From positions 949,001 through 1,013,000 of the forward strand of contig WPIO01000031.1 in NCBI GenBank assembly GCA_009760855.2: a DNA stretch of 64,000 bases, read 5' to 3'. The position numbers and the translations under genes were made by a program. This stretch comes from Cristatella mucedo (lineage: Eukaryota > Bryozoa > Phylactolaemata > Cristatellidae). Every line of letters begins with the position of its first letter. Position 1 is the stretch's first letter. A model generated the notes under the pieces. The model was not told the origin of the DNA. It saw nothing but the letters and a program-made list of their open reading frames with translations, and did no database searches. This document shows positions 3,025 to 63,889 of this stretch, one piece after another.

Positions 3025-6000
3025 GTGCTCGCTTTCTCTGAATACTTCCTAACGCGCTTGATCAATATGTTTTTTTGCTTTATAATAAATTTTTTTTCGT
3101 TAGCACGTCGTGTAATCAATAATGTTGGAAATGTTTTAGACTCATAATGCTGACCTGTTGATAGACCGTCGTCTGCCTTTTCATGCTTTGCTTGGTGGGA
3201 ACAGTTGGAAAATCTTAAGTGAGTGGCATAGCTCAGCATAATTTTTGCATGTGTCTTTGTACGCCTTTCTTCCACAACTTGATTTCCTTATTCAATGATC
3301 ATTTTGTGCTCTCCCCAGGATGCGCCACTGACGAGCACATTAGTGTATGTGCAGACAAGTTGTCTTAGTGAATGTGTGTGTGTGTGTGTCTGAGTGTGTG
3401 CGTGTGTTTGCATGCGTGCGTGTGCGTTCTTCTGTGTGTGCTTGCCGGCGTTTGTTTGTGAGAGACAGCCGACTCAGGGGTCCTAGAACAATTAGCCTTA
3501 CCCTTTGAGACATCCATCTTCCTTGGCAGCCTGCTTTGGTCAAGCGTTTTGGGGCGCTGAGAATGGCTCACGGCTGATGACCCAGCTTCGGAGCAGTAAA
3601 TCAACGGTGTGTGCAGCGTCGTCAGCAGAATAATCCATCGATCTGCCTCAGTCTGATCTGCATTGAGCTGCTAGCTGTCAAGTGGTTTCGGCACTGACAG
3701 TGGCTCGGCAGTGCAAAACAATACTTGTGCCTGTAATAAATAGGCTGGAGAGTGTACGAGTGATGGTGAATCCCTCTGTACAAATAGGTCGGTAGAATCC
3801 CTTTAAAGCCACGCTTCACTGTGAGGGCTGCTTCCATTCTGTTTCAGTCTTGGGTGCTTATGTCACGAAAACTAGGGGGCTGTCCTAGACTTAAGCAAGA
3901 CTGAACGAAGACTCGGATGCTGAGCGCGGTTCTAGTTCTTGGACAAGACTTGGGCAAGATCCGAGTAAGGTGGCCTCAGACACACAGCCACCAGCAAAGG
4001 GTGTCGTTTATGTCGGTTTATACTCTCCCTCTTGCTGATGTGATTGCCAAGCACAATCTAGGTTTTCACTTCTATGCGGATGACACTCAGTTGTACCTTT
4101 GCTTTGATCCCTCCCAGCCTTCGAGCACCTCGAATTCTCTCAACTCACTTGCTACACGTATTCATGACATCCGCACATGGATGGCAGCAAATTTTCTAAA
4201 ACTAAACGATGATAAAACAAACTTACTAGTTACGGGCAAACACAGTGTGATTCACAAATTGGAAAGGCTGACGCTCAAAATTGGCTCGGCCAGCATATCT
4301 CCTGTTGAATCAGCTCGAAATCTTGGTGTCATGTTCCAAAGTGACCTCTCGTTAGACGACCACGTCAGCTCCACAGTCAAATCTGCCTACTTTCAGCCAC
4401 ACAACATTGCTAAAATTCGGGCTTGTTTAGATAAGGATACCACGTCTTAATTGGTCCATGCATTTGTGACATCCCGACTTGATTTCTGTAACTCGCTGCT
4501 TACTGGCCTACCGGCGTGTGCAATCAGGCGATTACAGCTTGTGCAAAACTCTGCAGCTAGGCTTGTCTGTCGTGAACGTCACAGTTGCCAGATCACACCA
4601 CTTCTCAACGACCTGCACTGGCTACCAGTCAAGCAACGGATCGACTTCAGTCGCTCACTTTTAGGTCACTTCATTCTTTGGCTCCAGCTTGTCTCTCAGA
4701 TCTACTTCCCCATCAGGCCAGACATCGTACCACCCGCTTTTCGGAATCCAGCAGTTTACCAATACCGTGTACAAACCTCAGATCCTTTGGAGACCGTGCA
4801 TTTAGTTCGTATGCTCCCAAAGCCTGGAACTCACTCCCGACTTGCGTCAGAACATCCCCTGACTTGACCACATTTAAAAGAACTTAAAAACACACCTATT
4901 TAGGACAGCATTTAGTGCTTCCCTGTGATTCGTCCTTCATGTGCTTATGCGTGCTGACACTGCATGCTGCCACTAACCACACTTGCATGGTGACCCTGTG
5001 CATGTCACCCCTAACTATGTTATTCACGTTGTTTATCAAGCATGATATTACTCACCATTCAATCGTGTTTCACTTTGCAGCAAATGTAAAGCACCTAGAA
5101 AGAGATTGAGTTCTCTGAGGGCGCTTTATCAAGAGCATTATTATTATTATTATTATGTCTCGATCAGCAGAACTACATCTAGCCATCAATGCATCTAGAA
5201 ATGCATCGCCAGGAATCCATTTCATATAAGAATGAGATTGAGATTGTGAAGACGGCAATACGGGACAATGGTGGAAGATTAAAATTCACCGGAAGGTGCT
5301 GAGGGCCATTTCCTGCCTCACTAATAAAAGCAGTTTACCCATGATCACTCTGGGTTGGAGCTAGTAGGGAGCAAGACTTGGAGGAAAACTGACCTTGTAA
5401 ACCTCCTTCTCGGATGAAGACCGAAGCAGAACAGAAACAAGACTCATTGAGCAAATGTGGCTTAAGCTGAGCTAGCAAGCAATGGAAAGTCTACAATGCA
5501 AAGACTGAAATGGGCTAGATCGAGCTGGCGTCTTAGTGAATAAAGTGCTTGACACCAGAGACAGGGAAATTTTGCTTGGTTACACTACTCAGCCTCCAAC
5601 AGTGAGTGCGCATAAAAGTGTGCAGACTCTTTTGCCTATGAGTGTGTATGCACGCGGTGGTTTTCAGGTGCACCTTGCTTCAAGGTTCATTGCTTTGTGC
5701 GCTCCTGCAAGAAGCTGCTCTCTGCCTTTGCCTGAAGTTGATCCAAACCGGTCGTGTCCATGCAAGCTTGATTAGTGACCGTTCTTAAAATCACCAGCTA
5801 CTTTGCTGTTGGCTGCCGGTCACCGATGCCACCCCGATAGCATCGAGACCAGCTCTCATGATGAACAATCTATGCCGGCCGAGTTCGTCGGTGGAAGGGG
5901 CTTCTGTTAATCTGCTGACCTTCGGCCCCAGCTAGCTGCCCGAGTTCGACTCTCTGGACCGGCGCACAAGGCATATCCCGTGCTTTCTTTCTCAGAGGAG

Positions 6001-9000
6001 CACTCGGCTCAAGTAGCTCCGCTGGCTCTGTGTGCCACTGCGGCCGCTGGTTTAGGATTAGCTGCAGTTGCATGCGATCTCTAGCGTTTGCTGGATGGCT
6101 TGAGTTTAGCGTAGCTTGCAGCGAGACACCGCTGTAACTAACGGTGCCGCCATATGCAAACTTCCTGCCATAGCCGGTCGATTCGAATAAAATAAAGTCC
6201 GTCTCGCTTCTGGTCCTTGCCTGGCAATTCCACCAGAAGCGGCGATCTGCCACTGGCCCTTTGTAGATTGTTCGGTCAGTCATCCACCTTTGCTAGGCTT
6301 CCTGCCTGACAATGCTTTCCTCGACCGACCTGCTATCAAGCTGCTGCAGCAGCTGTGATTTGCTCGCATTTTAGCTGAGTAGTTGTGTGCACTGTAACTG
6401 TCTGGGTTGGGGCGACGAATCCAAGCAATCAGAGAGCCACTCGAGAAGTCCTCTCAGTGCTTTACAGTGTAGCGTGACGTACACGGCGCTGAATTTCTGC
6501 TCAGCCTGTTAGCTCCTGTTTGCTGGTGCAAGTGGCCAGTCCACATCAGCGCTATCGCTCGGCCGCGCTGCCAGACAGGTTACGTTTGGCGGCCCTTGAG
6601 CGTAGAGGTCATTGGTGCTGCGCACCGCGCTGCCCTCGTCGGAGACGATTTGCGGCCCTGCGATAATGCGGTTCCTTCTTTTTTCCACCTGTGCCGCAGC
6701 CGCGGAGCTGAGCGAACAGACCGTCGAGCCTCTGCTGGCCGTCACCTCACTGCTTAAGGTGAGGAACGCGAATCTCTCTACACTTTCAGGCCGGCACGTG
6801 TCCCTCCCTCTCTTTCCCCACTTTTTCTTTCTTGTCGAAATCGGCCGGCAGCTGACCTATTGGACACGATGCAGCAGCCTCGTCGTTGCAGCTATCTCCA
6901 GACCACTTATATGTGACCGCCGTTCGAAACATGGCGACGGCTCACATGAAGCGCTGCACCGGCACCAATGGAGCAGCCGAGACTTTGCTGAGCTGCGGTC
7001 CGAACCCTTTCCTAGAAAAGGCTGAGAGGCTTCTTCGCCACGTCAAGGTAGGCGTCGTTGTTTCCTGCCGCTTCTTTGCCTTGCCTTGGTCCTTTCACTG
7101 GCTGGCATGAGTGCTTCGGAGCCCTGGCAAATCTGCTGCGATAGACGTTCCCTAGTCTGGCGTTCATTCTCGTTTCTGAAATCCATTCACGTTGTGCTGT
7201 CGTCCGAGTTACCTGGCACCAACCGACTGGCGGCATCTTTTGCAAATCAAATGTGCTGCTCTCTCATTGCGAATTCGCCTATCTTTCCTTCTGCTGTAAG
7301 CAACGGCTAAGGAAATTCGTGGCTGTTTTGATGCTTAACTCGAGACTAGTAGCTGTGGGGTTTTATCTTTTTATGCATTAGACTTCTAAAACTTTTTTCT
7401 AGTAGTTCTCATAGTTTTGTACCCTTCTTTTCCAGCCACGGGCCGTGGACATTGAAAAAGAAATTAAAAACGCATCTATTTATCACAGCATTTAGTGGGT
7501 CCCTGTGATTCGTCCTTTATGTGTGTATGCGTGCTGACACTGTGCATGCTGCCACTAACCACACTTGCATGCTGACCCTGTGGATGTCACCCCTAACCAT
7601 GATATTCTTGTTTTTTACTGAGCATGCTACTACTAACCATCCGATCGTGCTTCCTTTGCAGCAAATGTAAAGTGCCTAGAAAGAGATTGAGTTCTCTGAG
7701 GGCGCTTTATTCAGTGTTATTGTTATTATTATTATGGAGTGAGCATACCCGAGTTCAATGGAAGGGGCTTCGTAATGGTCGTTGGTAGAACTGCTGCTTT
7801 AGCAGTATGCATGCCCCTCGGTTTTTTCCAAAAGCATTGCATTTGGCTTCATGTAGCTTAGGTGGAATGCAGATAGCACATGGGGGCCACGCTGTAGCAA
7901 CCTTCTTATGTGCACACATTCCTGTAGATGAGTTTCGCTGGCTTTAAATTCAAACCATTTCGATCAGAATAAGTAGCTGCTACAGAATAGTGCTGCTTCT
8001 TAGCAGAATACAACCGAATCTGTTTGCATCTTGCCTTGTTTACAATCGGTATGGTGCACGCTGTCTCGTCTCAGACGGAGCCGTCGTATTTTTCAGGACA
8101 AGGAGATGACGGTCGCCTGCATGCAGTGGATTGCACAAGGTATGCCGGAAGGCACCAGTGAGCAAGTGCAAGCTCTGCAGACGTCTGTCACCCTCGCTCA
8201 GGATTGGTGCAGCTGTGAAAAGGTATGTGCGAGCAGTGTGCCCAATAACGTCATTCTAAAGTTGTGCTATGTCCCGGTTCAGAATTCTTGCTGTACTGAA
8301 CTGATGTGTTGTCGAGCTAACCCATCTTACTAAGCTTCGTTTGCAAGGCCAGTCTCTCTTTTTAACGTTGCCAACTTTGACTTTATGAGAGGTGGTTGTC
8401 ATTGCTAAATCATCAAAAGGTCGAAGCTCTGCTGTGAAGTTCATGTTCAATGTTTGGACTCATTGCAACTTTTGTGGTTGGAAATTCTATCCCCAAAAAA
8501 CAGCTGCTGCCACCTACACATCGCCATCGTTGCTGTCGTAAACGATTCCTGCTTGTACTGTGTATAGCATGTCACCTTCTTGCCTAGATTCGTTGCCAAT
8601 TACAGACATTTTATCCCCACCGATGCAGAAATCCCAATTAATGATTGACCCCTGAACGATATGTTGTGCAGCATAGGATCTTGAGGAGCTTGTAGCTCTT
8701 TAGTGAGAGAAGTGGAGCTGAGAAAACGATATGTTGCATAATGACTTGCCGGCCATCAAAGGGCTGCTGAATCTTGGCTTTCTGAATTGTATCGACTGCA
8801 TTTGGGGGTCGCTGAAGGAATTGTGCTAGTGTAAGCACGACACCTTTAGTTTAGTTCTAGTAACCCACTTTGACATGTATATGTAAAAATGCTTCAGCAG
8901 TTCCCCTGTAACCTGTGCATCACAGTATTAAAGCGACTCGTATCAGGCAATGCATTGTCTATGGACAGCTGCTGCATGAATCTGCATGGATCCGGTCTAG

Positions 9001-12000: not shown

Positions 12001-15000
12001 GGGCATTTAGGGTATTATGGCCCTAAAATGAGAGATTTCCAGAGCAGAGAATGTGGATTTTGCTGTCGCGAGTGCAAGGCTTGTCAAAAAGGTACTATAT
12101 TTTGTGCGAAGGCTCTTCTTAAAACTGCTCAGTATGTAGCTGGGTAGCTCAGTTTAGCGTGTTACTGTTCCCTGTAAAATTGTACTTTCCACTCGTGGTT
12201 GGGTCCAACAGATTACCGAAATAATACAAAAAACGGCCCAGTTCCAAAATACAAGAATGCAACCTAAAGTGAAACTGAAAAGACGCACTATTTCGATAGC
12301 ATATATTTTGTAAGCAATGACATTAACAGATGGGAAATAGTTAAGCAGGCAGCTGTGTATCTTGTAAGATGTAATTACTGATTAGCCCTTGTAGCTATAT
12401 TAGATCCCTGCAATAATGAGGAAGTTTTCTTTATCATGTAAGCTTTTATCCGTGATTGTAGATTGTGCCGTTGCTTCACTGGTAGAAACTCACCGAACCT
12501 TATTTCAGAGGTGCCAGTTTTCCCTAGGTAGTTGGACAATGTGGTCTACCCATTTTCAGCAAAAAATGACATTCTATGACCAACTTGTCTCAAGCAATCA
12601 ATGTGCTTGTCGCTTTGCACAACTAATAATCTCTGGAATGTTAACTGTGTGCTACTTTTTATTTCACTGTGAATTATCGGTTGTGAGCACTGTTTGGTTA
12701 CTCGATATGAATTAAACACTTGAAATGAGCGGCATGAGCTCATTTTTATGTTGCTGTTTTGCATAGCTTAACAGCATGATTCATTTTATAGACATATTTG
12801 TAATCGTGGAAGAAGTGGCCAAGATATTCGGCATCAGCATGGACAAACTTTCAAAAGCTTTAGCAAAAAGTTGGCTCGGTTCTGCAGAAGACTCTCAGAC
12901 TCCAGTGCTTGATGACCTCAACAGCAGCATGGTACGCTCTTGCTTGTGAAATTAGGGAGTATTTGACTAATTCTTCTCGATTCGCCGCAGCTGATGCAGC
13001 GTGTTTCTTTGCTCGCACAAACCCCTGCTCATTCGGGCACTGTGCCTCTGGCCTGTTGACCGACCTACCAAAGACCTGCCAAAGGTTTCTGCAAATATTT
13101 TTCGGAAACCTTCGAGCCTCAGCATGCGTTAATTGTGTGCACATCTCATCATGCTGTTCTTTACTTTCTGTTTTCATCTTGCAACGTTTCTTTGTTTACA
13201 TTAATGGTTTGGTGGCTGCAGAATATCGCTACTTTAGCTTGTGGTGAACCTTATAATATTTTTGACTGCATCATCAGGGCTTGTTGCCTTGCACTACTTG
13301 GTTGGATGCATTCATATCATTCCCTTGGTGGTCTGTCTGCCGAACACCTGCCAGACGGGTCAGCTGTGGTAATTATGATTGAGATGCCTGTTTGTACTTG
13401 CTATACTTTTCCATGTTGTCAGACCGTCATCGGAAACATTAACATCTCTCTTAGCCCGAATACTCGTACCAGCAAGGTCGACGCGGTCGACGAAGATGGA
13501 TCCGTGGTTGTTAGCAAGTGAGTGGCTTGCCTCAGTTAAAAATACCTGCCATATGGCTTACGGAATCCATTTTACCCCTACAGCTCATAATTCTTGCTGC
13601 ATGCAATTAAACTCGTGTATGTGAGCTCATCATGAACCCGTGTAGAGTGTAGCTCATTATGAACCCATGTAGAGTGTGCAGGCATGCAGCCTGTTATTGC
13701 ATTGGCTGGCAAGTGAATCGCCAGCTACGAGTTCTCAGTTTCTGTGCTGAAAATCCCCTTACACTGTTAATAGGGTCGCGTGCTTACACAGAGAAAGCAT
13801 CTCACCAGCTCCCGACTTCAGTCCCTCGACGTCTGTAATATGCCAGTGTCAGAACTGTTTGACTGCTGTAGCAAAAGCTAGAGCAAACAGCTGTTGATAC
13901 CTCTGGCAGCTGCAGCGTTTGCTGGTGCAAACGTTAAGGATAGATCGAGAAAGCATGGATATGATCCAGCTTTTGTGTTTTCTTTACGTACTTAAGGGGT
14001 AGCTGATTTACCAGCCTCATTTATAAAGCAGCAAAAGAGCCTTAATCTCTATCAGCACTGCTTGTACTTGAAATGGTCGGCAACCAATAATAATAATACG
14101 TTCGATAAAGTACCCTCAGAGAACCCAATCTCTTTCTAGGCACTTTACATTAGCTGCAAAGGAAGAACGATTGAATGGTTAGTCTAACCATGCTCAATAA
14201 ACAACAGGAATAACATAGCTGATATGCACAGGGTCAGCATGCAAGTATGGTTAGTGGCAGCATGCACAGTGTAAGCATGCATAACCACATAAAGGACTTA
14301 ACACAGGGACCCACGAAATTATTTGATAAATACGTGCGTTTTTAGTTTCTTTTTAAATGTGGTCAAGTCAGGAGATGTAGTGACGCAAGTCGGGAGTCAG
14401 TTTCATGCTTTGGGACCATACGAACTAAAGGCACAGTCTCCAAAGGATTTGAGGTTTGTATGAGCTGTAGGTAAACATTTAGATTCCGAAAAGAGGGTGG
14501 TACGATGCTTGGCCTGGTGTGGAAGTAGATCTGATCGGTAGGTTGGAGCCAAAGAAGAAAGGGACCTAAACGTTAGTGACAAAACCTTGAAATTGATGTG
14601 TTGCTTGTCTGAAAGCCGCTGCAGGTCGGCAAGAAGTGGTTAGGTGTGGCTACTGCGCCACTCACAACAGACCAGCCTAGCTGCAGAGTTGTGAACCAGC
14701 TGCAAACACCTGATTGCACAGACCGGTAGACAAGTAAGCCCTAAGTAAGTCAAGAGGAAATTTCACAAAGGCATGGACCAATATAGATGTTGTATCCCTG
14801 TCTACAAAAGCCCGAATTTTAGCAATGTAGCTGAAAGTAGGCAGACCTTACTATGGAGCTGATGTGGTCGTCTAATGAAAGGTCACTTTGGAACATGACA
14901 CCTAGATTTCGTGCAGGTTCAACAGGAGATGTGCTAGCAGAGCCGATTTTGAGCATTAGCCTTTCCAATTTCTGAATCACACTCGGTTTGCCCATAACTA

Positions 15001-17635
15001 GTATGTTAAATTTATCATCATTCAATTTAAGAAAATTTGCTGTCATCCATGTGCAGATGTCATCAATACATGCAGCAAGGGAGTTGGGAGAATTCGACGT
15101 GCTGGAGGGCTGGAAGGGTTCGAAGCAAATGTACAACTGGGTGTCATCTGCGTAGAAGTGAAAGCCTAGATTGTGCCTGGCAATCACATCAGCAAGAGCG
15201 AGGGGGACCAAGCACAGAGCCTTGAGGTACCCCATATTTCAGAAGTTCCTCGGATGATAGGTATCCATTCACATCATTACTCTGGAGTCTCTCACTGAGA
15301 TAGGACCTGAAGTGCAGTGCAGTGTCAGTGATGCCCAGGCGAGATGAGAGATGCTCGAGAAGGACTTGGTGATCGATAGTTCAAAAGCTGTCGAGATATC
15401 GAACAAAACCAGCAGAGATACTCTACCTATGTCTGCATTCCTAAGTAGGTCGTTGTACACCCGACGTGATGCTGACTCTGTAGAGTGATTAGCTCTAAAG
15501 CCAGACGAGTTTACTAACAGGGTTTGAATTTCGATATATGAGTTCAGTTGGTCTGCCACGACTCATTTCAGTGTCTTTGATAGGAATGGTAGAAAGGAAA
15601 CTGGGCAGAAGTTGCTCAAGTTCTCTTGTACTAGTGTTGCTTTCTTGAGTAGTGAATGGCCCGACTACAGCCTTTTTGACAGGTGCTGAGGCATTACCTG
15701 AGGCCAGTGACATTTTTATGGTGTTAATTATGCATGGCGGCAGCAGATGAATGCATCGTAGAAGCAGGACGGTGGGGATAGGGTCCAAAGAACCAAGTTC
15801 TCTCATCATTTGATGATGCCGACTCGCATGCTGTTCAGTTGAATTCTCATTGTCACTGTCGTCATAGTAACTCGGTCTTGCCTCCTCTGGCTTTCAGTCG
15901 ACTTCGTCCACGGGATGGACTCGGCAGAGTGGTTGTTGTGGGCCAATTGCTTACCTGATTGTCGGTTCAGTGGAGGGGCAGGGCCTCAGGCAGCAGTCCC
16001 CTGTTGCATCTTGACGTATTCGTTGTACTCTAGGACTTAGGGCTTTCATCCATTCCTCATAAGCAAATCGGTTGTAAGATTGCTAATATTTAAAAAACTG
16101 CCTGCCATCATTGTAATTGACCAAGGATTTTTATAGTGATTTAAGCCAAATGTGGGTTGTCAGTGCTAACTTAATCTGTATTTTTTTCTGTGTTGCCATC
16201 ACAGGCAATTACATGAGGGCTGTGCAATTTGTCTTTCAAAAATATCTAATGACTAGTGCCTTAGATTCCATGTCCGAGATCGTGACCAACTGCTATACGG
16301 TTACCATTACCTTCATTCTTTTCTGCTTTGCGACATTTCCGTATTGCTCCAATGCTATGCACGTTAGCACATAAGATATCAACTCTTTGTGTGCGATGAC
16401 TGGTAGGCATTCGAACAAAGACCGAATGCTTGCAATGAAATGACGTTTTCAGGCATTGATGTTTCACAGTGGCGTTTTCATAAATCGGTGTATTTGATAG
16501 AAAAATATTTAGAAAAAGTGTTTGTGAAACTTAAAAATTGGCAATGTCCCTATTGATAGTACCTTAAAAGCAACTGCATTGACTATTTTTGTAGATACTT
16601 TTTGTAGATACTAGACATGCCGGGTATACGAAAATTCTAAGCATTGTCTATGCTGATTTCTTAATTTCCAATCCATAGCCAATCGGCATGCCGTCTGACC
16701 ATCCAGTTGACTGCATTTACTACAGCCCAAATGTGGGCTTGGCACCAACTGGGACTTAGCAGCATTCAATTGCTAGGCAATTGCGTATGGTGAGACTTTT
16801 GTGCATTGGAACCTGTGGAAGATGGTTGGTTCAAATATTATGGATAACACTAAGATACCCGGTCGGCTACGTGTTCCTGCACCCACAAGGGCAAGCTGAT
16901 TTCAGAATGAATCCTCATCGGTTTACCCCTGCCTGGGTTCATGCTCAAAGCCTGCTGCTGGCTGCTACTGAGGAGCCATTAGGCAACGATATGAACAGGT
17001 ATCGACTAGGTGAACAAGGTGTGTTTGCCCAAAACATGTAAAAGAAACCGCTTTTGTCTGTCAAGCATCAAGTCGCTTGTTTTCAGTGTGCTAGGATGAA
17101 AGCACATTTACCTATAAAGACTAGAGCAAAGTCGAAGGGTGTCATATCACATCTGTATGCTAGCTTTTTTCAAGTTTACATGACGTGAGGAGACCGATAC
17201 TGCCAGATGCTTGGGACTGCTTAATTGCCTCTATGTCCAAGTGGCAGATGATTGCTAATCGTGGTAGTGCAACGTCACTATAACTTATTTAAGTTGTTCT
17301 GAAACTTTGCTTGTACCCTATGTAATCAAATTTTATATACTTTGCATGATTACAGTAGATTGCAATAACTTTTTTTTTATACCAGAAGCAGAACTTTTGG
17401 TGCTGTGGCTATTTTAGGCAGCCTCGTCAATACTTTTGCGCACTCGAGTGGAAATTTGGCTGTCGGTTCAGTCACATTTGCCAAATTTGTAATTGTGTTT
17501 TAGGGTCATAGCTATTCTTCGACATGTCTCAATCGATTCATCAGTTGCATTCCTGTTTAACATGGCATTCCGGGTAAGCTTGCATTACATTTTATTTCAG
17601 TTGCTGTTGGTTGCTGTTGATGTCTCCTCTCTTTC

Positions 17636-17688
<53 letters not shown>

Positions 17689-20600
17689 GCGTGTATGTGT
17701 GTGCGTATGCGTGTATGTGTGCTCACGGCACATGAATGTGCGCAACTCCTGTTTACTGTGAAGGTTGCATTGTTCCAGTCAGCATTTTTTCTACATCAGC
17801 AAATGGTTGCCAGGGGGACGAGTTGATCCTAACGAGAAACATACAATTGGAGCAAAACTATGCGGCTCGGCATATCTTTCGTAAACGTCACGACTTCGAC
17901 ATTACACTGCTCTTCATTAATCTTCACTGGCGGCCTGTCAAGCATCGTAACTTCTTCGATATTCTTTCACTCACCAATGATCTCTCTGTTCTCTTCCTCT
18001 GGCCTACCTATTTGAATTAGTTTCAGATCGGGCCTACCATCTCACTCTCGATGTTCTTTCTTTAGTCGATTGGTTGTGCTACCATTTAGCACCGAGGGTC
18101 CTTTGCCACGTGCTTCCCCCCCCCTGCGTAGTGCTGTCAGCGTACTTGGAACAACGTCGCTTTGTTCCGTGCACGTTGCACGGCCGTGTGTGCCTCCGAT
18201 CATACCTTGCGCCACCGAACGTTTGTGAGTGAATCAGAACGAGTTCTGCCGATGCAGCATGCAGAGCACTGCAAAGTGGTGTCGGCAACGTCTGCGCGTT
18301 GAGCCAGCGTTAAAAGCCGTGCCCTGTGGCCTGCCCAGCATCGGTCTTTCAGGGGTAAGCTGTGATGGCACTCTATGTAAGGTGGTTACTCTTTACGACC
18401 TCGGTCCCGAGGTTGAGGGTTCGGATCCTGCTGTGTGTGATTCTTTATTGCCACTGCAAGTGGTGGTGATAGCCTTTAAGGCTCTTCTGCCGCAAAGCAA
18501 AAAGAGGCTGTTAAATCAGCTGGTAGATTTTCTTTACTTCGTACGATGGCATCTCTGTCTGTCCTGCCGGCTCACACATCATCATCGCCGCATTTTCGGC
18601 TGGCCTCACTCAGCTACCGTGCCACGTTCTTCCTGCCACGTTCATCGTGCCCCAGCCGTCCACATGCTTCCGGAGGCCTGCACACACTCCATCGTTCTGG
18701 CACTGTGCAGGAGACCAAAGCAGGAATGGCCAGCGCCTAGTCCGTGCGCCTCCTCCCACCGCCATAGTGGCCCCTCCCATCTGTAGGACCAGCTGGTGGA
18801 CGAGAGTGTGCGCTTCCGAGCGCTGAACTGTCTGCTCACCATGTGCAAGATGGAAGACCTCGAGAAGCTAACTGGGATGTGTGCACCCGACTATCGGTAC
18901 GTACCATCTCTTTCTCATTTGCTTCAATGATGTGAGTGCCTTGCTGCAGCAGATATCTAGCGAGGCCCGACCTCTTCCTTTGCCACGAGAGTGGGCTGAA
19001 ATGTTAAGCCTGCCGCCCTTCCGTCTGAGGCGTCGGCCACGGGTGCTCTGTAGGCGGGAGCAGGGTCGCGCCGGCTCGCTTGCAGCGCTCAGCCAATCAC
19101 TGCTGCCTAGACTGGCCGTGCCGCCAAGAGGAAAGCTGCCTCGATTTTTTCTCCCTCCATTTTTGCCAGCAAGAAATACGAAGACTTCGACCTGCTGCTG
19201 AAGCTGAGGGCCTTTCGGATGACTTATAGTTTGGGCAGCATGGCTCAGTGTGGCAAGGACACCATCATCCGAAACCTCTGGCAGAGGCACCGTTCCGAGC
19301 CGCAGGTACAGCTCCTGCTCATGGGGCAGCGCTGCCTCTTACTCCACCCCCTGCACTGGCGCCCGGAAAGAGGCCCTTGGTAATCGTGCGATCTTGAACC
19401 TAACGGCAAGCTTGGGTTGTTTATGAAGTTGCCGCTGAAAGTCCAGACTCACTACATGGGAGGGCATGCTTAGTCTATTCTTAGTCATGGGAGGGCATAC
19501 TTGGTGGCGTGCTTTTCCCTATTCTGGTCTTGAGTATTCGTTGTCTTGCAGAAGAAAGGACAGCCCCTTCATTCGACTCCAGCCTACCTATCAGATCTAA
19601 CTCCCCCACCAGGCTAAGCACCTTACCACTCACTTTTCGGAATCTAACTGTTTACCCATCCTCGTATTGCTCGCTAGATAAGGCGGTTGCTTTTCACGAT
19701 ATTGGCCCCGAGGTCGTGGGTTCGAATCCTGCGGTGGGCGATCCTTTATCGTCACTGTAAGCGGTGGTGATAGCCGTAAAGGCTCTTTCGTTGCTATACA
19801 AAACGAGGCTGTTAAATCAGCTAACATTTTTTTATAAACCTCAAATCCTTTGGAGATCGTGCCTTTATTTTGTGTGCTCCCAAAGCCTGGAACTCACTTT
19901 TGACTGGCGTCACGACATCCCCTGACTTGACCACATTTATAAAGAAACTAAAAATGCATTTACTTATCACAGCATTTAGTGGGTACCTGTGATTCGTCCT
20001 TTATGTGGTTATGCGTACTGACACTGTGCATAATGCCACTAACCATACTTGCATGCTGACCCTGTGCATGTCACTCCTTACCATGTTATTCTTGTTGTTT
20101 GTTGAGCTGGTTACCTGTAGCCATTCGATTGAGCTTCCTTTGCAGCTGATGTAAAGTGCTTAGAAAGAAATTGAGTTATGAGGGCACTATATTGAATGTA
20201 TAATTATTATTATTATTGCCTGTCGTGACACCTTGCACGATGCCCGAGCAGCTGCTGCTGCAATCACGTTTCTCTTTTGCCTACATGCCACATACCCAGC
20301 ATCTGAAAGAAACCGGACAGCCGTACCGTCAACTTTCTGTTAAGCCAACATAATGTCTATAGCCTATGCACCCAGTTTGGGTGTCCCTTCTCCGAAGTGA
20401 CCTCTTGCCAAATGACCCCTTCAGCTCCATAGTTAAGCCTGCCTACTTCACGCTGCCTAATATTGGAAAAACTAGGTACGTGCTGTCACTTGGCATCTCT
20501 GTAAATGGGTCCATCTGAAAATCTCTTCGTGCAGGCCTTTCTGCCTGTGCATAGAGATACTTGCAATTGGCGTCTGTCGTGAGTGTCCTATATGGCGCGT

Positions 20601-39794: not shown

Positions 39795-40158
39795 AAGTGA
39801 CAGTGCATTTAGTTCGTTTTCTCCCAAAGCCTGGAACTAACTCCCAACTTGCGTCACGACATCCCTGACTTATCCACATTTAAAAAGAAATTAAAAACGC
39901 ACCTGTTTATCACAGCATTAAGTGGATCCCTGGGATTCGACTTCTATATGTTTATGCGTGCTGACACTGCGAAAGCTGCCACTAACCACGCTTGCACGCT
40001 AACCCTTCGCGTCACCTCTAACCATGTTATTCTTGTTGTTTATTGAGCATGCTGTCATTAACCATTAGAACGTGTTTCCTTTGCAGCAAATGCAAAGCGC
40101 CCAGAAAGAGATTTAGTTCTCCGAGGGCGCTTTAGCAAGTGTGCTATTCTTATTATAT
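39795..40158 (+). mobile_element. LINE family A 3' end
   Basis: Starts at KAWN-type sequence (cccaaagcctggaactaac), continues with ccacatttaaaaagaaatt, the 3' UTR, hairpin and tattcttattata. It retains CpGs such as cacgcttgcacgct where intronic copies have cacttgcatgct. Confidence 0.86.
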
Positions 40159-48460: not shown

Positions 48461-50106
48461 GTGAGTCTCGGCGTAAACAGCGTTAGCTTGTTGCTGGGTA
48501 TTGTCTGAACGCTGGGTTGGGCTGGTTTGTGACGGAGAGAGGGGGGATGTGTTCCCGTCGGCCGGCTGGTGGGGGGGGGATGTAGTGTGCTCCTGCGGCT
48601 TCAGCTGTTGTAATTAGCGAAGCGCCTTGGACACTAATGCACATGCCTCACCTGTGGCCACTAGTTAAACCATTGACTCAACGCATCTTCAGGCCACTAA
48701 TGCGTGTTATATTTCGTGCCGTCTGCTGCGATTGATCGAGCTTTCTTATATGTGCCCGTTGAGAGTAATAAAAGGAGTGTCTATGTCTCCGGCGAGACTC
48801 CAAACAACCGCCGCCGGAGCCACAGTCAGGGGTGCATCTTTTGGCCGTGGTGCCTACTACTTTGCCTTCGCAAAGTAGCCTGCGAGCCTCAAGCCGCAAG
48901 GCTCAGACAGTACTTAAACTGTTCTGCCTGGGAGTGTGCAAAGGATCATTATCTTGCTGCAAAATGTAACGATCTCCAAGAAGCAGAGTATTTGAACTCT
49001 TTAGTTCAACTTCCTTGACCAACGATAGCTTGAGTATAGTACTTTTTTTTGACAATTCCTTGTCACGTGCTGATGCAGTGGCCCAGCTAGTTGCCTGTTT
49101 TGAACCCCATAGAATGACTGCGAAGCGACTTCGAGGCTGGATGTTCCGCCTACTCTAGGAGCCGACTTTTTTTTTTTTAATAAAACAGGCTCAGTGAAAT
49201 ATGCTTCAGCAGCACAGACGATACATAAGCTTGTGGCCTTTACGCCTAACCAGAAAAGGAGGTAATACAGAATCGTTGTGGGGCGACGTCACACAACGTT
49301 TACATACCGGCAGCATAGGTTTGTTTTTGGGCTGTGCTTTGCACTCCATAAGTATGCCTGGCATCGTAGAAAACCTTATTACCCAACCGAATGTATGACT
49401 GAGTGTTGCTGAGTGAGGAGGGCAATACAGGCAAGCCAGTGCAGGTGCTACGCTTGCTAACCTCTCTGTGCTCGTGTGCGTGCTTGGTATGCGTTATGCC
49501 GAGACAAGCCGAGACAAGCTTCTTGACCGAAGTCTCCCGTGATCGTCAGCTATGGGAAGTGTGACACTCGCGTGTCTACTGCTACAGTTGGAACTCACTC
49601 CCGACTGAAGTCACGACATCCCTGATTGATGGCATTTAAAAAGAAGCTAAAACCACACCTGTTTATCACAGCATTTAGTGGTTCCTTGTGATTCATCCGT
49701 TGCGTGCTTATTTATGCTTGGTGACACTGTGCCTGCTGCCACCAACTAAATTTTACATGGTGACACTGTGCAGGTCACCTCCAACCATGCAATGTTTGTT
49801 GAAATTGTGCATGTTACCACTAATCATTTGATCATGCTTCCGTTTCAGCATATGTAAAATGCCTAGTAAAAGCTTGTTCTCTAAATGTGCTATACAAATT
49901 TATTAATAATGTTATTATTACGGTTAGCATTGTGTGCCGCCCCATTATTGTAGGTGATGCTCCGTACAGATGTTATCTGTGTGCATCTGTCATGCGAACC
50001 ATTTTCTATGGATTCTGCTGCCTGCTCTCCTTTCCCACATCCTCTGCCTCTCTCCCTGATGTCCTCTCTCTCTCTCTCTGTGCTTCTCTCACTCTCTTCC
50101 TGCCGT

Positions 50107-50175
<69 letters not shown>

Positions 50176-50619
50176 CTCTCCCCCTGCCTTTGTCTCTCTC
50201 TGCCTCTTGCCCTGTCTCTTGCTCTATCTCCTGCTCTGTCTCTTGCTCTGCCTCTTTCTCTGCCTCTCTCTTTGCCCTCTCACTCTCTATGCCACTCATT
50301 TCTCTTTGCTTCTCTCCGTGTCTCTGTCTCTCGGCCTTTCTCCTGTCTCTCTCTGCCTTTCTCTCTCTGTCTCTCAGTATCACTCTCAGTCTCGTTCTCT
50401 GTCTTGTTCTCTCTCTGTCTCTTCCTCATTCCCTCCCTCTCCGTCTCTCTCTGTCTCTCTGTCTCTCGGTCTCTCTGTCTCTCTGTCTGTCTGTCTCTCT
50501 CTCTCTCTCTGTCTCTCGGTCTCTCTGTCTGTCTGTCTCTCTTGCTCTCTCTCTCTGTCTCTCTCTGTCTCTCTCTGTCTCTCTCTGTCTCTCCCGGTCT
50601 CTCTCGGTCTCTCTGTCTG

Positions 50620-50652
<33 letters not shown>

Positions 50653-50737
50653 GCGCCTCTCTGTGCCTCTCTCGCTCTCCATGCTTCCCTCTCTGACTCT
50701 CTATCTACTCCACCTCTACCCGTCTTTCTGTCTCTCC

Positions 50738-50771
<34 letters not shown>

Positions 50772-51105
50772 CTCTCTCTGTTTGCCCTGCTCTCTTTCTC
50801 TGCCTCTCCCTCTCCTTCTTCTCTCTCCTTCTCGACTGCCTCTTGCTCTTCCTCCCTTGCTGGTCTTTTCTTTTCTTTCACTCTTTCTTTCTTTCGTTCA
50901 CTTTCTCTGCCTGCTCACTTTTGCTTGCTCTACCGCTTTCTCTCTCCCCCACTCTCTTCTCTTGGCTGCCCAAATCATTGTCGACCCCTTTCCATTATCC
51001 CCACTCACTGTTCTCTTTCTCCCTCTCTATTTATCTCTCTGTAGGGATCTCTGTTTATTTGTCTCCTTCTGTCTCATTGCCTGCATGCCTTTCTACCTTC
51101 CCCGT

Positions 51106-58905: not shown

Positions 58906-61900
58906 TATATTTCCTGTAGTCAGGCTGCAGTACTCTGATCCTTGCTCTTATCAATCAAATATAATAATAATAATACACTTGATAGAGCGCCCTCAGATAA
59001 CTCAATCTCTTTCTAAGCGCTTTACATTTGCTGCAAAGGAATATCAATACTCATCCCCGGTCCCCCACCCTTGCCTGCCTATGCTAATAATTTGGCTTCA
59101 TGTGACACTGGTGACTTCGGCTCCTCCGAGCGTTGTGCAGTGACAGATACAGCTCAAGGACCTGTGATGGCTGCCCGCCAAATGCAAGATGTCGTGTAAG
59201 GTCTTGGGTATTTATGAAGGAAGGCAGGAAGTGTAGGCAAGCAAAGCATTTTCTTGTTAAATCTTTGACCTCCTCTGGAGATGCGGTCAACTAAGAGAGC
59301 TTAGCTATCCTCGGGTCTCTCGTCCTGCCCTACCTGGTTTCGCAGAAATGATTGGAGTTCCTGCGCCCACTTTGCAAACTTTGGCATCTCCGTGATCAAA
59401 CTCACTTTTTATTTTACCTTATCTGTAGAGACGATAGACTGCTTAGAAACAATGGAAGGGGAGAGAGAGAGGGTTGATGCCTAAACGTGCGCTCGGGCCT
59501 GTTGTGTGATAGCCCCCCCCCCCCCCCCCGTGCAGATACGTAAAAAGACGTCCAACAGAAGCCGGTAATAAGAAAGGCAGCACGAGTGACTCAGCTCTGC
59601 CGTTCATACATTTCCTGTAATCTGCTCCTTTGCTGCAGGAGAGTGCGTAACATGACGGAGAAGAAGCGACGTGACCAGTTCAGTCAACTGATCGGTGAGC
59701 TAGCCAATATGGTGTGCTCTGACAGCAAAAAGCCCGACAAGACCAACGTGCTGCAGATGACAATCGATTTCTTGAAGCGGCAGAAAGGTAGGCAGACTGA
59801 ACATATTTGTGAACCTGTCGCCTTGGCCATGCGCTCGCGTGCTTGCACAAGCATTAGCAGGCATGTGATTGCGCCTGCACTTGCATATCTGCATCGCCGG
59901 GCATACGCATGGCTTTTCCCACCACACTGCCGGCCAAAACTGTGCACAGCCATGTAGAGTGCATCGCTGTAAGAACTGTGGCAGCTGCTGCTGCTCCTGC
60001 TGCTGATGCTGCTGCTACGATGTGTATATGCCAGCACTGCTGCAGCCTGCATATTAGCGGCATTGTGCGCTACTGAGATCTTTGCCTCGAAGTGGTGCTG
60101 AGTGGGGCTCGACAGTTCAGCGATGTCGCTAGCTGAAATGTCACATCGTCTGCTGCATGGATGTCGGGGAGCTGTCTTCCGAGTCCGAGCGCTGCCACTG
60201 ATCTGCCGTTGCTGACTTGCCCAGAGACACAAGCCTAAGGCGTCCTCAGGTGCCACATCGTCGGCGCCCCTAGGCCAGGCTTGCTTAGTTTGCGTATGAG
60301 TGCGAAAGGGTGAAAGGAAGCCATGGCTCATGAACTGCAGCGTTTGTTCGCTTCATCGTAAAATGCAGAGCGAAAAGTTCTTAGTGCAAGTCGGGGGATG
60401 ACCAAATGTGGGGATAATATGTCAGGTGTCTGAAATACCATTCGCTAGCTGTCAACTTCGATACTGCAGTGGTCATTCGCTCGTGTCGAACTTACACTGA
60501 CTCAAGTGAGTGATGATAGGATGACGTTTGAGGGGCAGATGTGGTCTTGCAAGCCACTTCCATTGTTTGGGTAGCATGCGTGCGAGATGGTCGAATGTTC
60601 CTGAGCCTCCGTGTGTGTGTGTGTGTGCTCGTATGTGTGCGTGCGAGATGGTCGAATGTTCCTGAGCCTCCGTGTGTGTGTGTGTGTGTGTGTGCTCGTA
60701 TGTGTGCTTTCGTGCTGCCTCATTGAAAGGACCATTTTGCATTTGCTTTCTCCGTGCTGAGGACGTACGGGTGCAGCGCTTGGCATGCGATCCTATGTGT
60801 GTGCAGTTTTTTGGAGCCTTGGAATCTCTCTCATCAGCCTCGATTTTTGCTTCGGCGTGGAAGGGAGGGGAACCTCATTGCAGTCTCAAACCTCATCGGG
60901 TCGCGCACCCGTTCGGGAAGCGAGAGGGAGAGGCAGAGGCAGAGGGGCGGACCCAGTGTCCTCCTGCTAGGTGGTGTGAGCACTGGCTGAGCTAGGACAC
61001 ATTTGCTCCCGAGCAGGTATTGTCTGCACGAAGGCCGTGGCGATCAGTGAGTTGGAAGAGTGTCTGTCACGAGAGCAATTTCTGGAAAGCACGAGCGAGC
61101 AAAGGGTTCCTAATTCTGGAGTGGGGTGGAGCGGCCAGGACTTCTTTCAACCGAGTTCACTCTCGGGCGAGGCCGCTTGCCAAGTGATACTACGTTGCTG
61201 TCGATGCTTGTGACAAGTTGTTAATGATGACCAGTGACCGGCGCTTGTTTACGCTTGTTGCTGTTTCGATTGGTGCCGAGCTCTGTCGACCGTCAGGATT
61301 CAGGACCTAGTGGATAGCTGGGTCAGGTGGCAGTAGTCGGCTGGCATCGTCATTTAATGCTGATCTTCGTTGAAAGCATCAGCCAGATAAGCTGCTGTCA
61401 TTAAGCCGGCTGTGTGAAGTCCGGCCGCCTGTGTGAAGTGTGTAACTACCAGTGTACCCTCACATCCTCCTTGATAGATGGTTGAAGGGGTCGGAGGCTT
61501 ATCGGGCCAGTGTAATGGCATCACTGCAACCAATGGCAGTCGAAAGGATTCTTGGGCAGATAATCCTCCATCTATCACCCGGCCTCCTCCTGCTCAAGCT
61601 GCTCCTTCAGGTGGATAGAATAGATGCCGGCCATCTCATGGCAAGTAGTTAGACTTTGCCTTTATTAATATAATTCATTTGCATGTATAATTCATTTGTA
61701 TAGCGCCCCAAGAGAACTTAATCTCTATTCAGGCGCTTCACATATGCCTCGGGGCTCGCTCGAGCCCACGACCTCAGCCGGACCTTGGTCGGGGCAAGCA
61801 CCTTAACCGCTGGACCAAACCAGCACGGCGGTGGGGGCTCTTGTATCTGACCTAGGCTTGCAAAGATGTGGCGTGGGGCATTGGCCTGGTGCATCCTCAC

Positions 61901-63889
61901 CTGAGTGTGTGTCACTTGCTGTGCATGGCTGCATCCACCCATACTGTGTAATGAATGGATTAGTTGTCTTAAATTTGCAGTGAAAGGGGGCTTTGTTGCC
62001 ACGACTTGTGCTGGACATCAGGTTCTAGTGCAGTGGCTCTCAACCTGTGGGTCGCGACCCCTTTGGGGGTCGAACAATCCTTTCACAGGGGTCGCCTAAG
62101 ACCATCAGAAAACACATTTCCACATTTTGCATACAATATTTTTATGGCTGGGGGTCGCCTTAACAAGAACTGGAGTAAAGAGTCGCGGCTTAGGAAGGTT
62201 GAGAACCACTGTTCTAGTGGCTAAACCCTATTGTGGCCAGCAGGCAGTGGCTTTCAGCTGGCTACCTGGTAGGCGATCGATCGATCGTTGGTGATTGGCC
62301 AACAAGCTGGCTAGCTGGTAGGTAATCATCGGTGATTGAGCTAGCATTTTAGCTGATGGCTAATGATTGGCTAGGAGGTGTGGAAGTGGCATATGGGCCT
62401 TGGCAGACTTAATCTACCCCTAATGTAGTGTATCCGTGTCTGTAACTCCACAAAGCCAAATGACTATCTGGGTGTGTACCTGGATTTGTTTTGTATAGAG
62501 CACTCAAAGCCTAAGCAGCTTTTGGTATGCATTCGGTACCCAACAGACTTATAATTTATAATAAGCTGGTTTGGTTTCTTAGTTTGCCCGTCTGTGACAT
62601 CACACTTACACGCTGAGCTGGTTTGGCCCAATGGTTAAGGTGGTCACCCCACCAAGGTCAAGTTGATTGTATTTGATGACCAAGGTTGTGGGCTGGAGAC
62701 GCGTGACACATGTGAAGCGCCTGAATAGGGATTAAGTTCTCTTGAGCTGCTATACAAATGAATTATTATTATGCTAGGCCTTTCATAGTTGTATGTAGGC
62801 GTAAAACATAGTTTGAGCAATGATGAATGCCAAAAAAGGAGGGGGATAATTTAGTAATTTGCATATGTAGATGCAAATAAATGCACTCTTTTGGTTGATA
62901 TTGAACATGGTCAACTTTAAACAGTAAAATGTGAGCTTACCCATGTTGTTAAATGGCTGAAAATTAATGGCAGACCTAAAATTCACACCCAGTGCATTTT
63001 TGGATGAATACTAATCAAAATCGAGCATCAGCCTAAGCTCAAAGAAAAAGACACTTGCACTAGCAACAAGTAGTCGGGGAGATGCCAGAACGAGGCTGCA
63101 GAACCAAAGCTGGATGAAAGAGGGTTCTTGCCAGCGACAATGTGCCCGAGAGACCCAGAGGAAAAAGCAGAAGCATGACGAATTTGGGAGTCACATTTTT
63201 CCTGTCATACATGCCGACTGAAACCTAATTTCAGTATTATTGCATTATTGTAGTGCGTGCGAGGGCTTGGCCAGGTCAAGCTCTCCTGTTGTAGCTGGGT
63301 GTTGGTGGAGGTATGGGCTATTTTGCCATTGCAGGTATGTGTGCTCATGGGTGCTCGTGGGGGCGCGTACACAGTGCGCTCGTTTGTTTGTGGCAGGTTG
63401 AACGTTGTCTTCTCCACCGGTGGGAAAGGGTTGAAACTGCCCTCTCCATGTCGCTTGCTTGTGATTGCTGATTCGATTTCATTTTATCTGCTGGCAAGTT
63501 GGGCTATTTCGCTCATCAGTTTTTGCAACAGCGTGGTGTTCACTTGCAGCTTCCCTTGCTAGACGTTGCCTCAGTTAAATAGATAGTGACAGGCACAGTG
63601 CTAGTGCCGAGGATGCAGGTGGATTTCTCCCTCCTTCCCCTGTGCTAGAGAGCCGCCTGGGGGGGGGAGGTGTTGGCTTGGCGATGACAGGGTGGCCAAG
63701 CCGATGCAGCTTGCCCACGATCGCCCAGCCGCTTTGCCCCCCCCCTGCGCTCTGTGCTCGCCACGTGCCGCACTGCTACTTTTGCATCTTCCAGCTTCTC
63801 AATCTGCTATCGGTGCTGAGTCGACCAGTGACGATGGGTGGAAGCCGTCCTTTATGTCGGACGACGAGCTGCTGGCACTGCTCATGGAG
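48420..63889 (+). CDS. CLOCK: CLOCK-type bHLH-PAS transcription factor, N-terminal part (spliced, 3' end outside window)
   Basis: Three coding exons join in phase. The product starts MNYGKRKLAGRAD, then the bHLH domain with basic region RRVRNMTEKKRRDQF, helix 1 QFSQLIGELANMV, loop CSDSKKPDK and helix 2 TNVLQMTIDFLKRQK, then a linker and DGWKPSFMSDDELLALLME. KKRRDQF and the 'DWKP.FLS..E...LMLE' block that leads into PAS-A are hallmarks of CLOCK/NPAS2, not of BMAL/ARNT. Known role: partners BMAL/CYC, binds E-boxes and drives the circadian negative-feedback loop in the nucleus. PAS-A, PAS-B and the C-terminal part lie beyond the window. NPAS2 cannot be separated from CLOCK here. Confidence 0.9.
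48461..49580. other. CLOCK intron 1, 5' part, nothing identified
   Basis: GC-rich for the first 150 bp, then CpG falls. No repeat recognised. Confidence 0.4.
49585..49922 (+). mobile_element. LINE family A 3' end
   Basis: ggaactcactcccgactgaa (ORF2 end), then atttaaaaagaagctaaaac, the 3' UTR, and a degenerate hairpin ending gtgctatacaaatttattaa, with the ATT tail at 49900-49922. Confidence 0.83.
50041..51166. repeat. 1.1-kb polypyrimidine tract (CTCTGT/CT repeats)
   Basis: The + strand is almost pure C/T for more than 1 kb: (CT)n blocks at about 50110-50170 and 51108-51165, with CTCTGT/CTCGGT hexamer arrays between. The long Ser/Leu frames here (up to 442 codons) and Arg/Glu frames on - are repeat artefacts. 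Confidence 0.97.
51340..51511 (-). mobile_element. SINE family 2
   Basis: Read on -: tRNA-like head ctggt...aaggtaagctcgtttg, body, then the 3' tail aaagatttaagttctcttat and ggtgctatacaaataa. An A run interrupts the head. Confidence 0.75.
51512..52500. other. Intron sequence, nothing identified
   Basis: CLOCK intron 1; no repeat or exon recognised. Confidence 0.35.
52502..52652 (-). mobile_element. SINE family 1 (reverse)
   Basis: End motif gattaaacagccttg; B box cactgcacgactcgaaccca; A-box region caccttacccctggact. Somewhat diverged. Confidence 0.78.
53041..53065. repeat. C homopolymer
   Basis: Short run of C at 53052-53060, unreliable for any frame crossing it. Confidence 0.8.
53285..53432 (-). 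mobile_element. SINE family 2
   Basis: Reverse copy: tail ataattcatttgtggcgagt then gccctaagagaatttgatct, head ending aaccactgggccaaaccagc. Confidence 0.82.
53795..53955 (-). mobile_element. SINE family 1 (reverse)
   Basis: Starts attcaacagcctcatttttt; B box region caggactcaaaccgacgaac; A-box region aaccttacctcctgcgct. Confidence 0.82.
54187..54520 (-). mobile_element. LINE fragment with family A tail
   Basis: On - a frame reads GPRLWNLRPKIIRSNIPS, the ORF2 C-terminus, followed by the 3' hairpin and ATT tail (aataataattcacttgata at 54188). The tail is family A while the body is closer to family B. Confidence 0.75.
55185..55895 (+). mobile_element. LINE family B interrupted by two family A tails
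   Basis: ORF2 C-terminal sequence (ctgcgatggctccccgttga for LRWLPVD, then GDRSFSSKGLRMWKS in frame at 55405-55450) breaks near 55475 into a family A 3' tail ending (ATT)n at 55563-55580. A second tail ends at 55661-55686. The family B 3' UTR then resumes (ctgtcctgagctgctacttc) to about 55895. Confidence 0.75.
56071..56234 (-). mobile_element. SINE family 1, left arm of inverted pair
   Basis: Reverse copy from actagctgatttaacagcat to caccatcacg-type A-box region; B box agattcgaacccacgacct. Confidence 0.88.
56258..56434 (+). mobile_element. SINE family 1, right arm of inverted pair
   Basis: Forward copy starting gagccataatggctcactag, with palindrome, B box gtgggttcgaatcttgt, and end ggctgttaaatcagctagaa then a T run. 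It lies head-to-head with the previous copy, 23 bp apart. Confidence 0.9.
56664..57713 (+). other. GC-rich island with unrecognised 349-codon open frame
   Basis: Continuous + frame of 349 codons, MCWQCHEVVNHW to SLTSTSDILV, rich in Ala, Cys, Ser and Arg, with an overlapping - frame of 246 codons (57033-57773). No domain, signal or splice pattern is recognised. The sequence is CAG/GCN-rich (poly-Ala-like) and locally GC-rich compared with the intron around it. Best read as a GC island in CLOCK intron 1; coding is not supported. Confidence 0.3.
57715..58330 (+). mobile_element. Decayed LINE copy
   Basis: Phrases parallel the family A ORF2: gtctgccttctttcacctac (SAYFHL), gcattcctgacatcctgact (AFVTSRL), then gcagttggcaaaaaactcac and ttatctgccgtgatcg, and cccaaagcctggaacttatt (KAWNLL). 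No tail; truncated at about 58330. Confidence 0.7.
58487..58640. repeat. 63-bp tandem duplication
   Basis: Two full units starting ctaaccagc[a/g]ttcttgagtc and a third partial unit (gtacgcttttgcatgcatgc). Confidence 0.88.
58661..58790 (+). mobile_element. SINE family 1, shortened head
   Basis: A short head (ccctgtggtaaggtattcga) lacks the region between A and B boxes, then gcgatcctttattgccaact and the end aaggctgttaaattagctga. Confidence 0.78.
58800..58905 (+). mobile_element. LINE A / SINE 2 tail and (AT)n run
   Basis: gttaagcacctgaaaagaga, then tgcagttctcgtagggtgct and atacaaaggcattatt, grading into (AT)n at 58873-58902. Confidence 0.65.
58963..59060 (-). mobile_element. LINE family A 3' tail
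   Basis: Reverse tail: aataataataatacacttga, then tagagcgccctcagataact and ctttacatttgctgcaaagg. Confidence 0.72.
59512..59530. repeat. C homopolymer upstream of bHLH exon
   Basis: About 17-19 C, likely length-variable, 110 bp before the exon. Confidence 0.9.
59639..59787 (+). CDS. CLOCK: CLOCK bHLH exon
   Basis: Acceptor cctttgctgcag, donor AGAAAG|gtaggc. It contains the basic region (E and RR of the EKKRRDQF motif are the E-box-contacting type) and both helices of the bHLH. Incoming phase 2 and outgoing phase 1 fit the neighbours. Intron 1 before it is 11.2 kb. Confidence 0.93.
59960..60570. other. CLOCK intron 2, nothing identified
   Basis: A short CTG-rich run at 59980-60015; the 215-codon - frame at 59684-60331 is the antisense of the bHLH exon plus intron, and I do not support it. 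Confidence 0.4.
60578..60715. repeat. 61-bp tandem duplication with (GT)n
   Basis: tgcgagatggtcgaatgttc then ctgagcctccgtgtg is repeated at 60581 and 60642, each followed by a GT run of different length. Confidence 0.92.
60720..61660. other. CLOCK intron 2, nothing identified
   Basis: No repeat family or in-phase exon recognised. Confidence 0.35.
61660..61828 (-). mobile_element. SINE family 2, well preserved
   Basis: Read on -: head gtgctggtttggtccagcgg then ttaaggtgcttgccccgacc, B-box-like gtgggctcgagcgagc, body catatgtgaagcgcctgaat, 3' tail agagattaagttctcttggg then gcgctatacaaatgaa. The ataattcattt motif is duplicated at the tail end. Confidence 0.88.
62031..62211. mobile_element. SPIN-like hAT MITE (non-autonomous DNA transposon)
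   Basis: 181-bp element with terminal inverted repeats cagtggctctcaacct at the left and aggttgagaaccactg at the right, imperfect by one base. Internal text gtgggtcgcgacccctttgg, ggggtcgcctaagaccatc and gggggtcgcc is what I remember from SPIN (Space Invaders) hAT non-autonomous elements. It is flanked by perfect 8-bp target duplications ttctagtg at 62023-62030 and 62212-62219, the hAT hallmark. No transposase. Confidence 0.88.
62418..62560 (-). mobile_element. LINE family B 3' fragment
   Basis: taatgtagtgtatccgtgtc then tgtaactccacaaagcc, through tcggtacccaacagactta. Same order as 44783-44930, reverse orientation. Confidence 0.78.
62613..62773 (+). mobile_element. SINE family 2 (forward)
   Basis: Head gagctggtttggcccaatgg then ttaaggtggtcac, with an internal insertion (caagttgattgtatttgatg), body acatgtgaagcgcctgaata, tail gggattaagttctcttgagc and tgctatacaaatgaattatt. 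Confidence 0.85.
62780..63794. other. CLOCK intron 2, 3' part, nothing identified
   Basis: Contains G and C homopolymers (63660-63668, 63738-63746). No repeat family or exon seen before the PAS-A lead exon. Confidence 0.4.
63795..63889 (+). CDS. CLOCK: CLOCK exon leading into PAS-A
   Basis: Acceptor catcttccag, donor ATGGAG|gtgcat. Incoming CT completes G to GCT. It reads SQSAIGAESTSDDGWKPSFM then SDDELLALLME. The length between the bHLH and WKPSF equals that in vertebrate CLOCK as I recall it. The next exon should start with the 'ALDGF'-type PAS-A strand. Confidence 0.88.

Follow-up and report, generated by a model that had tools for sequence, protein, structure and literature searches.

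The window analysed here, a stretch of 64,000 nucleotides (positions 949,001 to 1,013,000 of contig WPIO01000031.1), carries between a CLOCK bHLH exon and a weak CLOCK-like exon piece a short transposable element that is most probably a member of SPIN, a hAT family known chiefly from mammals and reptiles and able to pass between distantly related animals. This assignment comes from sequence comparisons, in part with provisional reference sequences. The features of the locus, numbered within the window, are as follows.

59634 to 59786, + strand, exon for the bHLH domain of CLOCK, 5′ of the element (sequence alignment and PDB match)
62023 to 62030, no strand assigned, left target site duplication TTCTAGTG (read from the sequence)
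62031 to 62211, + strand, most likely a non-autonomous SPIN-type hAT element of 181 bp (sequence, family search and consensus comparison)
62031 to 62046, + strand, left 16-bp terminal inverted repeat, 15/16 identical to the right end
62049 to 62060, no strand assigned, GGGTCGCGACCC palindrome adjoining the left end, putative transposase binding motif (read from the sequence)
62088 to 62097, + strand, first copy of the GGGGTCGCCT motif (repeat family D5)
62151 to 62160, + strand, second copy of the GGGGTCGCCT motif (repeat family D5)
62196 to 62211, - strand, right 16-bp terminal inverted repeat
62212 to 62219, no strand assigned, right target site duplication TTCTAGTG (read from the sequence)
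63839 to 63889, + strand, exon piece with weak likeness to CLOCK, 3′ of the element (8/17 residues, E 0.11)

The two TTCTAGTG flanks of the element are identical at 8/8 positions and its inverted ends agree at 15/16, while the GGGGTCGCCT motif is present twice in its interior. It thus displays the short terminal inverted repeats, the 8-bp duplications and the absence of coding capacity of a miniature inverted-repeat transposable element (MITE) of the hAT superfamily. A preliminary description of this DNA had already recognized the ends and the perfect duplications, which are confirmed here; its span, 62023 to 62219, takes in both duplications, the element proper being 62031 to 62211. Its placement of the element in CLOCK also holds. 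Over 52 residues, the bHLH domain encoded by the upstream exon shares 54% identity with a provisional human CLOCK sequence. A PDB search with this exon matched nine sequences, with CLOCK chains in the first three places (E 2.6e-11 to 4.1e-10) and BMAL1/ARNT-type proteins in the other six (E 2.3e-4 or weaker). The copy in the CLOCK intron is probably without function.

The genome similarity search used throughout aligns only the best 40 first-look candidates per query. With the window copy as query, all 40 scored places match, the copy itself at 100% and the 39 others at 84-88% (best 40 of 2,137 candidates). A 187-bp consensus derived from 30 loci matches, when searched again, all 40 scored places at 94-96% (best 40 of 2,328 candidates), none of these being nearer than 4%. 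Since the candidates aligned are the best-scoring ones, these should be the youngest copies. Counting copies in the genome had been proposed as a check in the preliminary description, and it gives more than 2,000 first-look candidates as well as 155 exact occurrences of the 25-base end word TTCTCAACCTGTGGGTCGCGACCCC, against 0 for the reversed control. Chance alone therefore does not explain the window element, which belongs to a large family dispersed in the genome.

A second sample, selected by this end word, consists of 40 copies taken from 100 listed of the 155 occurrences, mostly one per contig. A right end is recognisable within about 265 bp in 32 of them, and the other 8 were left out of the counts; one of these is a longer form. 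Three more (L076, L084 and L104) enter, as judged by eye, a similar sequence ACTTAATCTC...AGGCGCTT, perhaps an inserted repeat.

Flanks alike at 7-8 of 8 positions border 20 of the 32 word-selected copies (8/8 in 7 of them), whereas after shuffling the right flanks among copies 3.7% reach 7-8/8 and 0.9% reach 8/8. For the 30 consensus loci the count is also 20 (8/8 in 10), and in these 20 loci the fourth base of the duplication is T at 19 and the fifth is A at all 20; the corresponding figures in the 32 word-selected copies are 27 and 29. The target duplications of the family fit the form nnnTAnnn, the pattern of Buster-type hAT elements.

With the selecting word left aside, the divergence of the 32 copies from the consensus has a median of 10.9% (6.8-18.5%), which falls to 8.9% if CpG sites are excluded; exact-word selection still biases this sample toward younger copies. 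The window copy differs by 8.3% (7.1% without CpG sites). The intact duplications had been taken in the preliminary description as a sign of fairly recent insertion, a view that these divergences do not sustain. By our own arithmetic, the chance of two 8-mers staying unchanged at 8.3% divergence is about 0.25, so that an intact duplication is no argument for recent insertion. The family looks old and silent.

What relates this family to SPIN are primers designed on mouse loci. Mouse carries SPIN/URR1 elements, and the primer loci at Ate1 and Il1b are taken to be SPIN. The mouse Ate1 screening primer R1 agrees at 19/20 with consensus positions 1-19, its first base falling outside, and primer R2 agrees at 18/20 with positions 56-75, in the same orientation (both from PMC2837401). 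On the other consensus strand, a mouse Il1b promoter primer agrees at 17/20 (from PMC10570371). While R1 was located through the end-word search and the Il1b primer through an inner-word search, R2 was not selected for and falls well inside the consensus. Not one of 2,000 shuffled versions of the consensus attained any of these three scores. Through R2 and the Il1b primer, the agreement with SPIN therefore covers subterminal as well as terminal sequence, beyond the end common to hATs. The preliminary description had named a lack of match beyond generic hAT ends as what would refute its claim of a SPIN-type hAT MITE; R2, at positions 56-75, gives such a match, and together with longer copies bearing remains of a Buster-type transposase it supports that claim.

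These longer copies share the ends of the short form. On contig C18, a 509-bp element (L080 and L118) is bordered on both sides by the duplication CTTTAGTT (8/8), and a 353-base stretch of its interior matches 46 stretches (best 40 of 97 candidates). Two interior matches 2.8 kb apart on contig C111 lead to L119, a 3,288-bp element that bears these ends and is flanked by a duplication agreeing at 7/8. At its 5′ side it agrees with the short consensus at 78 of 84 aligned positions; among its last 147 aligned bases, 131 match a provisional mouse URR1 sequence, part of this stretch being absent from the short form. Numerous stops and shifts interrupt the L119 frame; pieces of it nevertheless align in order to a provisional sequence of the TcBuster transposase of Tribolium, at 29-41% each, with in addition 11/17 residues near the start. 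TcBuster also has duplications of the nnnTAnnn type in common with the present family, while L119 is only about one third identical to it. PDB and Pfam searches with pieces of the broken transposase gave no match. Comparisons with these provisional sequences (URR1, TcBuster) serve as leads and not as tests. SPIN itself encodes a Buster-type transposase. The search for a full-length transposase source, advised in the preliminary description, met one long copy with the same ends and Buster-type remains, and no intact frame.

Two other hAT families of this genome were tried as source and rejected. In the first one, with frames of 635-642 residues, nine copies show no SPIN end (at up to 2 mismatches); what was read of them begins within the frame, the 5′ ends lying outside it. 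This family (L041, L042, L047, L050, L055, L057, L061, L062 and others) looks recently active. In a listing of 138 matches to PF05699, 63 score nearly alike, with an open frame of 635-642 residues around 16 of these 63, and the read part of one copy of this family matches Dimer_Tnp_hAT. The second family, Buster-like and abundant (L068-L073), is about 2.7 kb long, its six copies being 93.5-95.8% identical pairwise, with few stops in their frames. All six share a 2.7-kb unit devoid of SPIN ends; the right end is GGTTGGACACCCCTG in 4/6 copies, unlike that of SPIN, and a lone 14-base SPIN-end match in L073 is situated about 600 bp outside the unit. Buster-like frames are numerous in the genome (75 matches listed of 883 candidates, and 75 of 1,024 in a second search).

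Several points weigh against the attribution to SPIN and to its own transposase. It was built on primers from mouse loci and on provisional URR1 and TcBuster sequences, not on a library consensus. The provisional URR1 agrees with the 187-bp consensus at both ends and differs from it in the middle (150/187 aligned columns). Most SPIN/URR1 word sets were unmatched in the full texts of papers, where the end word and one set met mouse papers only. An intact SPIN transposase was not found, the single long copy read being badly broken, and the helper may have been the separate Buster-like family, which is numerous and bears other ends. As for independent SPIN copies, none was met in viral contigs or genome contigs by pattern scans, nor in plasmids or phages by similarity searches.

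One alternative is a native lophotrochozoan MITE of the Charlie/Buster group of hATs, sharing with SPIN only the widespread CAGTGGTTCTCAACC end. Such ends of 15-16 bp are common among hATs, the comparison with SPIN was made through primers and provisional sequences, and another Buster-like family abounds in the genome. However, a shared end would not account for primer R2, which was not chosen for the end word and yet agrees at 18/20 in the right orientation well inside the consensus, nor for the subterminal 147 bases of L119, matching the provisional URR1 at 131. We therefore consider a native origin unlikely. Alternatively, SPIN may have supplied only the ends, the short form being moved by another Buster-like family, whose frames with few stops are numerous whereas the only long SPIN-type copy read is broken. 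The 2.7-kb unit argues against this, having another right end in 4/6 copies and no bounding SPIN end in 6/6, and hAT transposases usually require their own ends; mobilization by such a helper appears quite improbable.

Which host carries these copies is indicated by CLOCK and by the mitochondrial DNA. A vertebrate CLOCK is expected to be far nearer to human CLOCK than the 54% found here. Of the 21,008 bp of mitochondrial contig C688, 20,000 bp were read. Translated with the standard code, its COX1 has 11 TGA codons in frame, and code 5, the sole one tried, leaves its long frames open. On one strand, from frames read by eye and ARAGORN tRNAs, the order is nad1, trnL, nad6, cob, trnS, nad4L, nad4, trnH, nad5 and trnF, with trnP and trnT on the opposite strand, the remainder being rearranged and partly repeated. 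A comparable gene block occurs in nemerteans, brachiopods, chitons, phoronids and entoprocts, according to PMC3368773, PMC2728741 and PMC11488289. C688 has 44% G+C and contains direct and inverted repeated blocks; nad2 and cox2, named by eye, are opposite to the other genes read.

Nuclear inserts of C688 argue that it is the host's own mitochondrial DNA: a 3.8-kb stretch of nuclear contig C166 is 96-97% identical to it, with parts at 99.5-99.7% to the repeated copies, and three more nuclear pieces match it at 75-91%. The insert in C166 is the one noticed at C166:4375626-4376390 (L032). Because of the 54% identity to the provisional human CLOCK and of this lophotrochozoan-like mitochondrial block, the window DNA is not of vertebrate origin, and a vertebrate host is ruled out. 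A domain search for mollusc haemocyanin gave no match, a result that does not prove absence.

Contamination of the assembly with vertebrate DNA might come to mind as SPIN is commonest in tetrapods. This has next to no credit, since the window copy is flanked by non-vertebrate CLOCK exons on a contig of 4.56 Mb and, of the 29 other copies fetched, 22 have flanks with further repeats that also occur in the window.

Other repeats lie elsewhere in the window. A dispersed repeat with reverse-transcriptase-like frames is present at 4025-5148 and 14086-15202 (81% identical), with related pieces at 7449-7736, 19833-20217, 39799-40156 and 49589-49920, and a CT-rich imperfect array of about 0.76 kb extends from 50064 to 50827. 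Rfam and ARAGORN gave no match over the window.

Very probably, the element in CLOCK is a non-autonomous copy of the SPIN family (hAT, Buster type) in a lophotrochozoan-like genome, which it would have reached by horizontal entry and amplification in trans. In the history that we propose, SPIN would have come into the host lineage by horizontal transfer, probably in the form of an autonomous element some 3.3 kb long. Its transposase would recognize the 16-bp ends together with GGGTCGC-rich subterminal motifs, to which it presumably binds, and insert the element at nTCTAGnn-like targets with 8-bp duplications; the ends and the target choice are seen in the copies, while the protein-DNA contacts are predicted. 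Shorter forms may have arisen by internal deletion, as illustrated by the 509-bp element, and the form of about 187 bp would have been multiplied in trans to high copy number, presumably by the SPIN transposase, one copy landing in the CLOCK intron. Decay of the transposase copies would then have silenced the family.

Horizontal transfer is the best explanation for the presence of SPIN in this host, as sequence likeness between distant lineages suggests, and the receipt of the family by this genome, put forward in the preliminary description, is most likely. Copies only 6.8-18.5% from their consensus imply a burst that long postdates the separation of the phyla, and yet these young copies still have non-coding words in common with mouse loci, the lineages being more alike than vertical descent allows. 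Descent of SPIN from a bilaterian ancestor without horizontal transfer does not explain such data, with non-coding words at 17-19/20 to mouse loci; we found no point in its support and regard it as extremely improbable.

Among cases of DNA passed between animal phyla, SPIN holds a leading place, and its known invertebrate carriers have been explained by host-parasite contact. Pace et al. in 2008 and Gilbert et al. in 2010 are said to have described these SPIN (SPACE INVADERS) hAT elements in tetrapods and Rhodnius. The present family resembles them by hAT ends of the SPIN kind, target duplications of 8 bp, numerous short non-autonomous forms, a long form with Buster-type transposase remains and a patchy occurrence far from tetrapods. 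It differs by its lophotrochozoan-like host and by the 187-bp length and the middle of its short form, which are particular to this genome as far as seen, the middle also differing from that of the provisional mouse URR1. A lophotrochozoan host of SPIN is not new as such, because the pond snail Lymnaea also carries SPIN and the snail Biomphalaria glabrata has a SPIN-like hAT. For Biomphalaria, PMC5440852 gives about 1,000 copies, and the presence of SPIN in Rhodnius, where piRNAs against it have been studied, is stated in PMC11614815. As in the present genome, the Biomphalaria elements are SPIN-related and old, in a lophotrochozoan host, without intact transposase reported in PMC5440852; the two are set side by side by description and not by sequence, and the mitochondrial trnP of the present host is opposite to nad1-nad5. 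In the literature covered, that is open-licence papers, the present species may be a new host of a known family.

It is possible, if somewhat doubtful, that the host belongs to a lophotrochozoan phylum without earlier SPIN report, being for instance a brachiopod, nemertean, phoronid or entoproct and not a snail, and that it received a full autonomous SPIN lineage which gave rise to thousands of short copies. If this is true, free-living aquatic invertebrates, beyond blood-feeders and freshwater snails, would carry SPIN and could be relays of an element that later swept through tetrapods. The known range of SPIN would widen by one phylum if the host lies outside molluscs. A high-copy carrier with a full-length relic would provide material to root and date the spread of SPIN, and to examine whether aquatic invertebrates are its donors, relays or dead ends.

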